Positions 5,677 to 25,907 of a DNA stretch of 64,000 nt are shown in pieces. The notes under the pieces were generated by a model. The model was not told where the DNA came from, did not search any database, and saw nothing but the letters and a program-made list of their open reading frames with translations. Numbering within the stretch: position 1 is the first letter of the stretch; every line of letters starts with the position of its first letter. Origin of the DNA: Pseudomonadota bacterium (GTDB lineage Bacteria; Pseudomonadota; Alphaproteobacteria; Acetobacterales; Acetobacteraceae); NCBI GenBank assembly GCA_021805545.1, contig JAJZFB010000067.1:32906-96905 (forward strand), given 5' to 3'. The translations under genes were made by a program, and so were the position numbers.

Positions 5677-6414
5677 ATGTTTGACCTGACTGGTAAAACC
5701 GCACTGGTTACCGGCGCCTCCGGTGGCATAGGCGCGGAAATTGCCCGCGCGCTGCACCGCCAGGGCGCGGTGGTGGCGCTCTCTGGCACGCGGCGCGAGG
5801 CCCTGGATGCCCTGGCCGCCGAGCTAGGGGAGCGCGTGCATGTGCTGCCCGCCGACCTTGGCGTGGCGGAAGAAGCGGCGCGGCTGATCGCCGATGCCGA
5901 AGCCGCCATGGGCAAGGTGGATATTCTGGTGAACAATGCCGGGCTGACCAAGGACGGGCTGGTTTTGCGCATGTCCGACGCCGATTGGGACAAGGTGCTG
6001 AACGTGGACCTCGGCGCGCCCTTCCGCCTGACCAAGGCGGTGCTTAAATTCATGCTCCGCCGCCGCGCCGGGCGCATCATCAATATCGGCTCCATCGTGG
6101 GCGCCACGGGCAACCCGGGCCAGGCCAATTACTGCGCCGCCAAGGCCGGGCTGGTGGGCATGACCAAATCTCTGGCGCAGGAAGTCGCCTCGCGCGGCAT
6201 TACGGTGAACCTGGTCGCCCCCGGCTTTATCGAAACCCCGATGACCGATGCGCTGACCGAGGCGCAGCGCACTGACCTTTCGGGCAAAATCCCGCTGGGC
6301 CGTTTGGGCCAGCCGGGGGACATCGCCGCCGCCGTGGTGTATCTGGCCGCCGATGAGGCGGGCTGGGTCACCGGCTCCACCATTCATGTGAATGGCGGCA
6401 TGGCGATGGTTTGA
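5677..6414 (+). CDS. fabG: 3-oxoacyl-ACP reductase
   Basis: This NADPH-dependent short-chain dehydrogenase reduces 3-oxoacyl-ACP in the elongation cycle. The 245-residue sequence has the cofactor glycine motif TGASGGIG (about 13-20), NNAG (about 86), and the Ser-Tyr-Lys triad around NIGSIVG and YCAAK. The ending VNGGMAMV is typical of FabG. Its ATG follows the fabD stop directly. The fab context makes FabG much more likely than the PHA paralogue PhaB, which is encoded at 41 kb. Confidence 0.97.
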   Translation: MFDLTGKTALVTGASGGIGAEIARALHRQGAVVALSGTRREALDALAAELGERVHVLPADLGVAEEAARLIADAEAAMGKVDILVNNAGLTKDGLVLRMSDADWDKVLNVDLGAPFRLTKAVLKFMLRRRAGRIINIGSIVGATGNPGQANYCAAKAGLVGMTKSLAQEVASRGITVNLVAPGFIETPMTDALTEAQRTDLSGKIPLGRLGQPGDIAAAVVYLAADEAGWVTGSTIHVNGGMAMV

Positions 6415-6496
6415 GCGCCAGGATTTGAGCCATGCGCCCCCGGCTTGGCGTGGCGCAAAAAACCATGCTAAGCGCCACCCCGGCTTACATCTGGGC

Positions 6497-6515
6497 TGGG
6501 GCCAAACCGGCCCCA
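6497..6515 (+). terminator. GC hairpin between fabG and acpP
   Basis: TGGGGCC-AAACC-GGCCCCA forms a perfect 7-bp stem with a 5-base loop, about 80 bases after the fabG stop. No T-run follows, so it may attenuate or stabilise ends rather than terminate fully. Stronger expression of acpP than of fabG from a separate promoter would fit; this is inference. Confidence 0.4.
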
Positions 6516-6593
6516 AGGTTAGCGCTTAACCCCATACGGTGCTAAGGTTGCGCCGTATCTCCACCAAACCAGTTTGCAGGAAAGTAAATTTTT

Positions 6594-6833
6594 ATGAGCG
6601 AAATCGCCGACAAAGTTAAAAAAATTGTTGTCGAGCATCTCGGCGTGGACGAAGGCAAGGTGACCCCCGAAGCCTCCTTCATCGACGATCTGGGCGCTGA
6701 CTCGCTGGACACTGTGGAGCTGGTGATGGCGTTCGAGGAAGCCTTCGGCGTGGAAATCCCCGAGGATGCCGCCGAGAAGATCGCGACCGTGAAGGATGCG
6801 GTTGAGTATATCGAGAAGCAGAAGGCCGAATAA
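6594..6833 (+). CDS. acpP: Acyl carrier protein
   Basis: This is the 79-residue acidic carrier that holds growing acyl chains on a phosphopantetheine arm. The attachment serine is Ser37 in [15 protein letters not shown], the canonical site. GCAGGAAAG upstream is a plausible ribosome binding site. It is flanked by a GC hairpin upstream and the large family D hairpin downstream, so it may be a transcription unit of its own within the fab cluster. Confidence 0.98.
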
Positions 6834-21814: not shown

Positions 21815-22621
21815 CTATTGTGCGAAGGAATAGCCGCCATTGACCGGGTAGGTCTGGCCGGTGATCCAGGATGAGGCGGGGGCGGCGAGCAGCAGGGCCA
21901 TCAGCGCCACATCGTCCGGCTTACCGTAGCGGCGGATGGCGTAGCGGGCGAGCTGCGCCTTTACCTGGTCGCGGGCCATGAAGGCTGCCTCTTCTTCCTC
22001 GGTCATCGGGTGGGCGATGGAGGACAGGGAGATGGCGTTGCAGGTGATGTTGTAGCGCCCGGTTTCGCGCGCCAAGGCGCGGATGAACCCGGCGGCGGCG
22101 GCCTTGGCGGCGGAATAAACGGCCAGGCGCTGCTCGCCCACACGCCCGGCATCGGACACGATGGTGATGATGCGGCCGAAAGTGGCGGCCACCATGTCTG
22201 GCACTGCCACATGGCAGCAATTTAGCACGCCGGTGGCGTTGGTGCGGAAGAAGCGGTCCCACTCCTCGGGCTTGGTTTCCCAGAAGGGCGGAGACATGCC
22301 CATGGTTACGTTGGGGCCGGCATTGCCCGCGTTGTTCACCAATATGGTGGCAGGCGCGCCAAGCTCGGCCTTGGCCTTGGCGAAGGCGGCGGAGACGGAG
22401 GCGTGGTCGCCCACATCGGCCTGCACGGCGGCGGCTTTTACGCCCAGCGCGCGGATTTCCCCGGCCACGGCCTCGGCGCGCTCCAGCACGAAGTCGTTTA
22501 CCGCGATGCCGCCCGCATTATGGCGGGCGAGGGTGAGGGCAATGCCGCGCCCGACCCCCTGGCCAGCGCCGGTAACAAGGGCGATACGGCCTTGCAGGTC
22601 AAAAGGGTCGTTTCCGATCAT
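21815..22621 (-). CDS. Short-chain dehydrogenase/reductase (SDR 1 of cluster)
   Basis: This 268-residue classical SDR has the cofactor motif TGAGQGVGRGIA (about 17-28), NNAG (about 94), a serine in IVSDAG and YSAAK for catalysis, and the ending GQTYPVNGGYSFAQ. NAD(P) specificity is not clear. A CATATTCG-type operator lies 14 bases upstream of the ATG, so it probably has its own regulated promoter within the minus-strand run. Likely an alcohol/ketone step in a catabolic pathway; substrate unknown. Confidence 0.9.
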   Translation of the reverse strand: MIGNDPFDLQGRIALVTGAGQGVGRGIALTLARHNAGGIAVNDFVLERAEAVAGEIRALGVKAAAVQADVGDHASVSAAFAKAKAELGAPATILVNNAGNAGPNVTMGMSPPFWETKPEEWDRFFRTNATGVLNCCHVAVPDMVAATFGRIITIVSDAGRVGEQRLAVYSAAKAAAAGFIRALARETGRYNITCNAISLSSIAHPMTEEEEAAFMARDQVKAQLARYAIRRYGKPDDVALMALLLAAPASSWITGQTYPVNGGYSFAQ

Positions 22622-22635
22622 GGCGTTTGCTCCAG

Positions 22636-22659
22636 CATATTCGACGATAACCGAATATA
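22636..22659. promoter_or_regulatory. Operator-like palindrome, copy 2 (CATATTCG-N8-CGAATATA)
   Basis: CATATTCG ACGATAAC CGAATATA lies between the LLM gene stop and the SDR 1 start. On the minus strand it overlaps TATATT, a plausible -10 box, with TTGCTT about 15 bases upstream as a possible -35. The same palindrome, same 8-base spacer, occurs at 24394-24417. Binding there would block the promoter, so repression is expected. Confidence 0.7.
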
Positions 22660-22671
22660 CTCCGGTTTTGA

Positions 22672-23544
22672 TTAAAGCAAGGCGGCGGCAAGGGTGCGCC
22701 AGCCGGGGCGGACGGCGGACACGGTGGGGCGCTCGGCGCCGGTGATGAGCTGGACGCAGACATGGTCCGCCCCGGCGGCCAGATGCGCCTGCACCCGCGC
22801 GGCAATTTGCGCGGGGCTGCCCCAGGCGAACAGGGCGTCCACCAGACGGTCGGCGGCGCTGTCGATCTCGGCTTGGGTGAAGCCGAGGGCGAGCCAGCTA
22901 TTCACGTAATTGGGCAGGCGGCCGTAATGGCCGATGACCGTGCGGGCGGCGGCGCGGGCGGTTTGCGGGTTGGTGTCCAGAATCACGCCTTGCTCGGGGG
23001 CCAGCAGCGCAGCTGGCCCCAGCACTTGGCGGGCCATGGCGGTGTGTTCTGGCGTAACCAGGTAGGGGTGGGCGCCCAAGGTGCGGTCGCGGGAAAGTTC
23101 CAGCATTTTGGGGCGCAGGGCAGCCAGGCACAGGGCGGAGGACGGCACGCCCTCGGCGGCCAGGCCGTCGAGGAAATTGCGCATGACGGTGAGGGGCTTG
23201 CCATAATTTTCGCCGATGATGGGGCCGTGGCTGACGCCCAGCCCGAGCAGGGTGCGCGATTGCTGCGCGGGGCTTTGGGTACGCCACCAGCTGCCAACCT
23301 CCTGCGGGGTGTGCTTCCAGATATTCAGGATGCCGGAGCAGAGGGTGGTGTTTTTCGCCGCGTCACGCAGCTGGGCGAGGTCGCCCAGAATATCGCCGCC
23401 AATGCCGCCGGGGACCCAGATGGCGCCGAAGCCCAGCTCGTCCAGCTCCGCCGTGGCTTCCAGCGCCTCGGCGCGGGCGCCAAAGCGCAGCTCCATAGAC
23501 CAGATACCGATTTTGCCGAGGCGGTTTTTATCCGCGGTGCTCAT
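22672..23544 (-). CDS. LLM-class (luciferase-like) oxidoreductase, F420-type family
   Basis: This 290-residue TIM-barrel flavin-dependent oxidoreductase has GKIGIWSMELRFG, AELDELGFGAIWVPGGIGGD, LCSGILNIWKH and LGLGVSHGPIIGENYGKPL. These resemble the MSMEG_4141-like subfamily annotated as F420-dependent. Use of F420 or FMN cannot be decided, and no F420 synthesis gene is in the window. The start at 23544 has GGAGGA just upstream; the ATG at 23559 precedes that site. It lies between the two SDR genes, so oxidation of a hydroxylated intermediate is plausible. Confidence 0.85.
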   Translation of the reverse strand: MSTADKNRLGKIGIWSMELRFGARAEALEATAELDELGFGAIWVPGGIGGDILGDLAQLRDAAKNTTLCSGILNIWKHTPQEVGSWWRTQSPAQQSRTLLGLGVSHGPIIGENYGKPLTVMRNFLDGLAAEGVPSSALCLAALRPKMLELSRDRTLGAHPYLVTPEHTAMARQVLGPAALLAPEQGVILDTNPQTARAAARTVIGHYGRLPNYVNSWLALGFTQAEIDSAADRLVDALFAWGSPAQIAARVQAHLAAGADHVCVQLITGAERPTVSAVRPGWRTLAAALL

Positions 23545-23577
23545 GTCTTCCTCCGTCATTCTTCCAGGGCAGCGTAG

Positions 23578-24333
23578 TCAGCCCGCGGTCACACCGCAAT
23601 CCGCTGTCCAGACAGCGCCATGCACCGCGCTGGCGGCGGGCGAGGCGATGAAGGCGACGACAGATGCCACCTCGGCCGCCTGGGCGGGCGGGCGGATGCC
23701 GGAATAGCGCTTGATTTTGGCGAAATCGGCATCGGCGGGCGGGCGCGTGCCGGTGGAAATTTCGGTCATCATGGCGCCAGGGGCGACGGCGTTGATGCGG
23801 ATGGGTTTGTCCGCATATTCCATGGCGAGCGATTTGGTGAGTTGCAGCAGAGCGGCCTTGGACATGGAATAGGGCACGATATAGGACGCGCCCATGAGCG
23901 CGCTTTGCGAGAGCACGTTGACGATGTTGCCCTGGGTTTGCAGCAGATGCGGAATGGCGGCCTGGCACAGCCAGAACGGTGCCGCGGCGTTGACCTGCAT
24001 GATGCGCCAGAATTCGTCCTCGGGCACATTGGTGGCGTGGTTGAAGCGCATGAGGCCGGCGGCGTTGATGAGGATGTCCAGCCTGCCATAAGTGGCGATG
24101 GCGGCCTCCACGGCGGCGGTGCAGTTGGCTTTTGCCGAAATATCGGTGGCGAACGCGGTGGCCGGGGCGCCGGTTTGTTTCAGCTCCGCGCAGGTTTCTT
24201 CCAGGCGGTCCGCCAGAATATCCACCAGCAGCAGGGCCACGCCCTGGGCCGCCAGGGCCTCGGCAATGGCGCGGCCCAGGCCGCGCGCGGCGCCGGTGAT
24301 GATGGCGGCGCGCTGGGGGTGCTGTGTGGGCAT
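23578..24333 (-). CDS. Short-chain dehydrogenase/reductase (SDR 2 of cluster)
   Basis: This 251-residue classical SDR has ITGAARGLGRAIAEAL (about 12-27), NAAG (about 90), the serine in VLSQSALMG, and YSMSK for catalysis, ending AVWTADCGVTAG. The start at 24333 has AGAAGGA upstream. It heads the minus-strand run and is divergent from the regulator gene, with a CATATTCG-type operator between them. It shares little with SDR 1 beyond family motifs, so the two probably act on different intermediates. Confidence 0.9.
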   Translation of the reverse strand: MPTQHPQRAAIITGAARGLGRAIAEALAAQGVALLLVDILADRLEETCAELKQTGAPATAFATDISAKANCTAAVEAAIATYGRLDILINAAGLMRFNHATNVPEDEFWRIMQVNAAAPFWLCQAAIPHLLQTQGNIVNVLSQSALMGASYIVPYSMSKAALLQLTKSLAMEYADKPIRINAVAPGAMMTEISTGTRPPADADFAKIKRYSGIRPPAQAAEVASVVAFIASPAASAVHGAVWTADCGVTAG

Positions 24334-24393
24334 GCGTTGTCCTTCTGGCTGCGGGGCGTGTGAGCGTTTTATCTGGTTTTCCCCCGGCCGAAT

Positions 24394-24417
24394 CATATTC
24401 GATAGATGCCGAATATG
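24394..24417. promoter_or_regulatory. Operator-like palindrome, copy 1 (CATATTCG-N8-CGAATATG)
   Basis: CATATTCG ATAGATGC CGAATATG is a perfect 8-bp inverted repeat in the divergent region between SDR 2 (minus) and the MarR/GbsR-type regulator (plus), 61 and 74 bases from their starts. The second copy at 22636 has the same arms and spacing. The natural candidate to bind it is the adjacent regulator. Confidence 0.75.
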
Positions 24418-24490
24418 TCAAAACGCTTGGCAGGCCACGGGGCTGGACGTTATTTGCCCTGATGCGGCGGCTTTGCAGGGATTGCGAAAC

Positions 24491-24949
24491 ATGATGAATG
24501 ACATGACGGACAAAGCGCGCCCTGACCGGAACGACCCGTTTATCGCGGCGCTGGAACGGCTGATTGTGCCCATGGGCATGCCGCCCATCGCGGCGCGGAT
24601 GCAGGGCTATATCATGCTGTGCCAGGAACCGGTGAGCCTGGATGAGATTGTGGACGGGCTGGGGGTGAGCAAGAGCAGCGCCTCGGTCGCCGCGCGGCTG
24701 CTGGAGCGGTACGGGATTTTGCGCTGCTACACCGCGCGCGGAACGAAGCGCGTGCGCTACGGGGTGACCGCGCATTGCGCCGGGTTTCTGCTGGAGCAGA
24801 TGCGCTCCATCGGCACGATGGCGGCGCTGCTGCGGGATGCCGCGCGGGCGCGGCGCGATGAGGCGGTAACGGCGCGGCTGACGGATATGGGCGCGTTTTA
24901 TGCGCGCGTGCATGCGGCGCTGGAGAGCGTGCTCCCGGAAGGGGGTTGA
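24491..24949 (+). CDS. MarR/GbsR-type winged-helix transcriptional regulator
   Basis: This 152-residue protein has ARMQGYIMLCQEPVSLDEIVDGLGVSKSSASVAARLLERYGILRCYTARGTKRVRYGV: a helix-turn-helix and wing in the GbsR-like arrangement. A C-terminal helical segment (RRDEAVTARLTDMGAFYARVHAALESV) would form the dimer. Several close ATGs exist (24491, 24494, 24503). It is divergent from the catabolic genes and next to the operator palindrome, so it probably controls the cluster in response to the pathway substrate or product. Confidence 0.85.
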   Translation: MMNDMTDKARPDRNDPFIAALERLIVPMGMPPIAARMQGYIMLCQEPVSLDEIVDGLGVSKSSASVAARLLERYGILRCYTARGTKRVRYGVTAHCAGFLLEQMRSIGTMAALLRDAARARRDEAVTARLTDMGAFYARVHAALESVLPEGG

Positions 24950-25034: not shown

Positions 25035-25907
25035 ATGCCAGGACAGGGTGAGAAGCTACGCAAACTTGTTGAAAGCGGCGCGCATTTTGTGGCCGCCGAG
25101 GCCTATAGCGCGCTGACCGGGCGGATTGTGGAAAGCGTGGGGTTCAAGGCCGCGTATCTGGGCGGGCATGCGTGCAGCGCCTTCCATTATGCGGTGCCCG
25201 ATAATGGAATTTTCAGCCAGGTTGAGCAGATTGAGCAGGCCGCGCGCATCGCCCAGGCGATGAATATACCGTTGATTGCCGATGCGGACACGCTGGGCGA
25301 AACGGTGGCGGATGCGTATCATTTTACCCGGCGCTACATCCAGCAGGGCATTGCGGGCATTCATATCGAGGATGAGCGCAACCCGAAACATTCGAAATAT
25401 GTGAACGGGCTGTGCTCGATTGAGGATATGCAGGCGCGGATTGACGCGGCGGTGCGCGCGCGGCGCGATATGGGGGCGGATATTCTCCTCATCGCGCGGT
25501 GCGATGAAATGTATTCTAGCGAAATGGGCGGCGGCGGCACGGGCAGCATGGAAGAGGCGATACGGCGCGGCCATGCCTATGGCGAGGCCGGGGCGGATGC
25601 CATTGTGTTCGTGCCACGGCCCGACCCGATTCCGGAGCTTGCCAAGGCGATGAGGATTCCCGTTTGCACGCTGGGCTTCAACATTCCTGGCACGGCCTTT
25701 ACGCTTTCCACCGGCTGGGGCTGGGTGAGCGCTGCCGCCAACCATTTGAAGATGGCGAAGGAGCTGATGGAGACGGGCAAGGTGACGAGTGCCAATTTTG
25801 CCTTCCCCGAAAAATACGATTTGCTGGGCCACCCGCTTTATGACGGGCTGGTTGAGGAATGGGCGCAGAAAACCGGCCGCCCGAGCCGGCCCAACCACGC
25901 GCCTTAG
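25035..25907 (+). CDS. Isocitrate lyase/PEP mutase superfamily protein
   Basis: This 290-residue TIM-barrel enzyme has LIADADTLGETVADAYHFTRRYIQQGIAGIHIEDERNPKHSKYVNG and LLIARCDE. Members of this superfamily cleave or form C-C or P-C bonds next to carboxylates. The Cys loop of isocitrate and 2-methylisocitrate lyases (KKCGH or KRCGH) is absent; PKHSKY stands there, so those reactions are unlikely. GGGAGAAACCAG precedes the ATG at 25035. It follows the regulator on the same strand, 85 bases away. Substrate unknown; a PEP-mutase-like hydrolase or decarboxylase is possible. Confidence 0.85.
   Translation: MPGQGEKLRKLVESGAHFVAAEAYSALTGRIVESVGFKAAYLGGHACSAFHYAVPDNGIFSQVEQIEQAARIAQAMNIPLIADADTLGETVADAYHFTRRYIQQGIAGIHIEDERNPKHSKYVNGLCSIEDMQARIDAAVRARRDMGADILLIARCDEMYSSEMGGGGTGSMEEAIRRGHAYGEAGADAIVFVPRPDPIPELAKAMRIPVCTLGFNIPGTAFTLSTGWGWVSAAANHLKMAKELMETGKVTSANFAFPEKYDLLGHPLYDGLVEEWAQKTGRPSRPNHAP

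Follow-up and report, generated by a model that had tools for sequence, protein, structure and literature searches.

The locus examined here raises the question of whether two similar inverted repeats, lying beside a run of oxidoreductase genes and a divergent regulator gene, are operators, and if so which protein reads them and with what consequence. The window (the whole stretch of DNA analyzed, 64,000 nucleotides of an Acetobacteraceae contig) contains both repeats, here termed O1 and O2, at the positions given in the preliminary description. That description treated them as one repeat with 8-base arms and an 8-base spacer. For O1 this is accurate, since it is a perfect dyad; at O2 only 7-base arms pair perfectly and the outermost pair is a C/A mismatch, so that O2 lacks the full 8-base arm.

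Table 1. Positions, strands and supporting matches of the genes, predicted promoter and operator-like sites of the locus (window coordinates)
Feature	Position	Strand	Remarks
SnoaL_4-domain protein, 180 aa	21115..21657	-	closes the conserved gene run
SDR1, short-chain dehydrogenase/reductase, 268 aa	21815..22621	-	
Operator-like site O2, CATATTCG-ACGATAAC-CGAATATA	22636..22659		LLM-SDR1 intercistronic space
LLM-class oxidoreductase, TIGR03620 (F420-dependent) family, 290 aa	22672..23544	-	304 bits versus a cut-off of 219.8
SDR2, short-chain dehydrogenase/reductase, 251 aa	23578..24333	-	first gene of the putatively regulated operon
Predicted sigma-70-like promoter of the SDR2 operon, TTGACA-18-TATGAT	24392..24421	-	interleaved with O1; 11/12 matches
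Predicted operator O1, CATATTCG-ATAGATGC-CGAATATG	24394..24417		between SDR2 (-) and the regulator (+); kept in all 5 regulator-carrying genomes
GbsR/MJ223-type winged-helix regulator, 152 aa, proposed binder	24491..24949	+	profile and fold matches
PEP-mutase/isocitrate-lyase superfamily protein	25035..25907	+	downstream of the regulator

The motif is rare. Two matches with at most 3 mismatches were found in the window, against 0.09 expected. When all 96 contigs of the assembly (2.79 Mb) were scanned with the search string proposed in the preliminary description, fewer than 3 mismatches in 16 positions occurred at three places only: O1, O2 and a perfect site at C35:9352-9375, upstream of an unlinked sulfotransferase gene, which thereby emerged as a further target. 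The six other matches, each with 3 mismatches, are at background level (a reversed control pattern gives seven). A scan for the exact core over 200 genomes of the family gave its three occurrences in the present genome and a single one in another, G011, which belongs to a different genus; that match was treated as chance because it lies inside an open frame. A few one-mismatch matches outside the known loci of the genus were inspected (in G596, G611 and G607), and only the one at the G607 sulfotransferase gene has a TTTGA/promoter context. In the papers inspected, the joint presence of the strings ATATTCG and CGAATAT was coincidental (primers; an NsrR operator oligonucleotide), and a literature search found no paper describing the SDR2-LLM-SDR1-SnoaL cluster.

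Within the genus, 38 genomes were compared. The exact 14-base core is present in G000 (this genome), G607, G611, G614 and G615, which are exactly the five that carry an orthologue of the regulator (66 to 92% identical), and in 0 of the 33 others (Fisher p = 2e-6, a value that ignores relatedness). The five belong to one genus and two of them are close (92%), leaving few independent lineages, and a single gain of the regulator together with its targets could yield the same pattern. All five genomes retain the gene order SDR2-LLM-SDR1-SnoaL, with the regulator gene next to it and divergent. The SDR2 site (O1) is likewise kept in 5/5, and the SDR1 and sulfotransferase sites in 4/5 each; the former recurs at the same position in G607, G614 and G615 and is reduced to a half-site in G611, an 86% complete assembly in which no sulfotransferase orthologue was found. 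Over 13 sites and 14 core positions there is one deviation in 182 cells, the single mismatch at the G607 sulfotransferase site. Comparison of the promoters of orthologous clusters, as the preliminary description had suggested, showed invariant arms with drifting spacers and flanks: mean pairwise identity within site classes is 0.96 to 1.00 for the arms, 0.50 to 0.62 for the spacers and 0.29 to 0.46 for the upstream flank. Arms that overlap the -35 and -10 elements are partly held by promoter function; the SDR1 sites, and the site in the distant genome G395 described below, lie outside that setting. The sulfotransferase orthologues (66 to 89% identical) occur only in regulator-carrying genomes, though on another contig, and other homologues in the genus are at most 35% identical; the surroundings of the gene differ in G614 and G615. 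Promoter sites of co-inherited genes are thus kept in relatives and rare elsewhere, as befits an operator-defined regulon. The preliminary description had called the unit self-contained, which is wrong: the sulfotransferase gene is unlinked and has a third site in 4/5 genomes.

The regulator has, over its full length, the winged-helix fold of the GbsR/MJ223 type within the MarR superfamily. Profile searches matched it to 5jbr, 4nb5 and 1ku9 (MJ223) with E values of 4e-16, 8e-8 and 9e-10, and a Foldseek search with its AlphaFold2 model (mean pLDDT, 87) returned these same three as the sole matches at E≤0.001, with TM scores of 0.63 to 0.73. No Pfam model matched at E≤0.001 (MarR_2 reached 17.5 bits against a curated cut-off of 27), and the NCBIfam GbsR-type model CudC scored 23.5 bits against a cut-off of 218. 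Because these curated family models are not passed, the protein is assigned to the GbsR structural type only and is not CudC/GbsR proper; nor do its candidate sites indicate control of choline or betaine genes, as the three lie at SDR2, between the LLM gene and SDR1, and at the sulfotransferase gene. The regulator gene is chromosomal-looking and rare.

Two relatives of the regulator bear on its identity as the binder. In G395, a genome of another family of the same class, a homologue about 40% identical (43% by BLAST) has TATATTCG-N8-CGAATATG overlapping its start codon, and no other gene of the cluster was found within 15 kb of it. The same operator at a regulator that stands without the other cluster genes makes the regulator the likely binder. 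Within the genus, a paralogue 34 to 40% identical to the regulator carries the recognition helix SN[AV]CAAAK and a palindrome of its own, ATATTCTG-N6-CAGAATWT, which lies over its start in G000, G614 and G615, is weaker in G611, and has no exact match elsewhere in the 38 genomes. This variant operator has the same geometry as that of the window regulator. Outside the recognition helix, the G395 protein is equally distant from both groups (0.29 to 0.35 versus the window regulator group, 0.29 to 0.36 versus the paralogue), whereas its helix resembles the window group (0.75 to 0.80) more than the paralogue (0.45 to 0.55), and its operator, like its helix, is of the window regulator's type. A tree also places G395 with the window group, weakly, so that common ancestry may account for some of this match between helix and operator. 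In this genome the paralogue lies on contig C73 (L031) at 6199-6650, divergent from an aldehyde dehydrogenase gene. A further relative in G305 (L030, 5080-5333), with half a paralogue-type palindrome at its start, is matched in two frames and looks decayed or frameshifted. A distant GbsR-like match in G905 has a different helix and no motif.

The placement of O1 suggests how such a regulator could act. A hexamer-pair scan of 22400-24700 found the promoter interleaved with O1 to be the sole promoter-like site. At all nine SDR2 and sulfotransferase sites, including the SDR2 loci of all five genomes, TTTGA precedes the operator, which is framed by TTGACA and, 18 bp on, TATRNN. Since the operator lies inside the promoter at both genes, promoter occlusion is the likely mechanism: a regulator dimer would contact both half-sites with its recognition helix (residues about 61 to 73), filling the space from -35 to -10 and blocking RNA polymerase, and a small molecule related to the pathway substrate would presumably release it. 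The regulator is probably autoregulated, since O1 separates two divergent genes and the right arm of the operator contains the regulator start codon in G614 and G395. The sites, their conservation, the co-occurrence and the promoter geometry were computed, and from them we infer binding, repression, induction and roadblock. Activation in place of repression is the less likely mode.

We conclude, with good though not complete confidence, that the adjacent GbsR/MJ223-type regulator has ATATTCG-N8-CGAATAT as its operator and that repression would proceed by promoter occlusion. A trivial explanation for the palindromes could be chance or base composition, given that short AT-rich arms can recur; the background lies far below the observed count and the sites are kept at orthologous promoters. 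The scan of 38 genomes already refutes this reading, to which we assign practically no weight. The sites could also be bound by another transcription factor encoded elsewhere (e.g., of the TetR type), with the adjacent regulator a bystander, and a dyad of 22 to 24 bp is indeed typical for other dimeric regulators as well. Such a factor would, however, have to account for the exact match in presence and absence between the core and the adjacent regulator in 38 genomes, for the same operator at the G395 homologue with no shared cluster genes in 15 kb, and for the variant operator of the same geometry beside the paralogue, and we regard it as very improbable. The preliminary description had named the adjacent MarR/GbsR-type regulator as the natural binder; co-occurrence and the G395 and paralogue operators make it the best-supported candidate, and very probably it binds both palindromes.

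The preliminary description placed a likely promoter before SDR1, which our data do not bear out: O2 sits in a gap of ∼50 nucleotides between the LLM gene and SDR1 within a codirectional gene run, 14 nucleotides upstream of the SDR1 start (14 to 21 over the genomes with the site), and the scan of 22400-24700 found no promoter-like hexamer pair there. That O2 nevertheless marks a separate promoter for SDR1-SnoaL is unlikely in our estimate; the right arm does place TAT[GA]C[TG] where the other sites have their -10 hexamer, but the hexamers at -35 spacing are GGAGTA/GCAGTA, so that no recognizable or conserved -35 element is present, and the TTTGA of all nine other sites is absent. The same intercistronic position and lack of a detected promoter would suit an mRNA hairpin acting in RNA stability or processing rather than a DNA operator, and the main point in its favor is a dyad lengthened to a 16-bp stem (-24 to -27 kcal/mol) in G614 and G615. 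This extension is absent in G000 and G607 (-12 to -13 kcal/mol), sequences of the SDR2 site fold about equally well, and G611 retains only a half-site. Moreover, the O2 arms are letter for letter those of the operator, invariant in four genomes and without compensatory change. We give the hairpin about the same low probability as the separate promoter. Our guess favors a roadblock over both, in which regulator bound at O2 would probably add another layer of control over the distal half of the operon.

The gene content suggests what the regulon may be for. Redox and conjugation chemistry on a hydrophobic alcohol or ketone is suggested by the combination of two short-chain dehydrogenases/reductases, an F420-type LLM enzyme, a SnoaL protein and a sulfotransferase, and enzymes of these classes could belong to the catabolic unit that the preliminary description predicted. 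The genome also encodes CofD of F420 biosynthesis (C65:34328-35218, L080; 288 bits versus a cut-off of 257), which makes F420 a plausible cofactor for the TIGR03620 enzyme. The unlinked target is a Sulfotransfer_3 gene whose product is, among solved structures, closest in sequence to 2z6v and 2zq5; on the other side of its site lies a divergent DapB-like gene, an arrangement seen in G000 and G607. In G614, the sulfotransferase gene comes after genes for an enoyl-CoA hydratase, a ChsH2-like protein and a thiolase, a set that would be typical of side-chain beta-oxidation. The PEP-mutase-superfamily gene adjoins the regulator in G000 and G607 only, and no operator of its own was found. DapB-like (DAP_DH_C) and PEP-mutase-like genes recur near the loci in varying combinations (L005, 5454-6551; L058, 5872-8600), and in G611 both lie alongside genes for a nitroreductase and an aldo/keto reductase. 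In a contig of the metagenome-assembled genome ZJ7.bin6 (L012/L027), a run of N splits the LLM gene at ∼2550-3091 of L012 and is flanked on either side by duplicated sequence; this has the look of a scaffolding artifact and not of a real duplication.

Taken together, the data describe a regulon that is new, under a regulator whose kind is known; the class of switch is ordinary and its wiring is unusually well mapped from sequence alone. Tentatively, and with somewhat less than even confidence, we picture one GbsR-type repressor using one operator sequence in two geometries, within the promoter at SDR2 and the sulfotransferase gene and as an internal roadblock at SDR1, together with a helix code in which SSASV versus SN[AV]CA would correspond to inner operator bases CG versus CTG. 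Shared regulation and co-inheritance would join the oxidoreductases, the SnoaL protein and the unlinked sulfotransferase into one putative pathway. Few targets are known for this little-characterized group of regulators, to which a defined operator is now added along with a natural variant of operator and helix; the operator makes searches for ligand and substrate directly testable by reporter.

The closest parallel is with GbsR and OpcR of Bacillus subtilis, small MJ223-type winged-helix repressors with several inverted half-site operators and autoregulation (PMC7396694). OpcR blocks access of polymerase at -35 and GbsR acts as a roadblock downstream of the transcription start (PMC7396694); both geometries appear to have a counterpart here. 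The systems differ in spacing, the half-sites of the A/T-rich GbsR operator being 4 bp apart (PMC7396694) and the ATATTCG arms 8 bp apart, and in targets, which are choline or betaine genes for GbsR and OpcR and SDR, LLM, SnoaL and sulfotransferase genes here. The best profile and fold matches, 5jbr (Bcav_2135, an uncharacterized protein), 4nb5 and 1ku9, are only 16 to 24% identical to the regulator, and the operator of MJ223 is stated to be unknown (PMC7396694). Canonical MarR repressors (MarR, MepR and HpaR) share the general fold and palindromic operators near promoters but are structurally more remote, with Foldseek TM scores of about 0.42 to 0.46 against the regulator and a MarR_2 match below cut-off.
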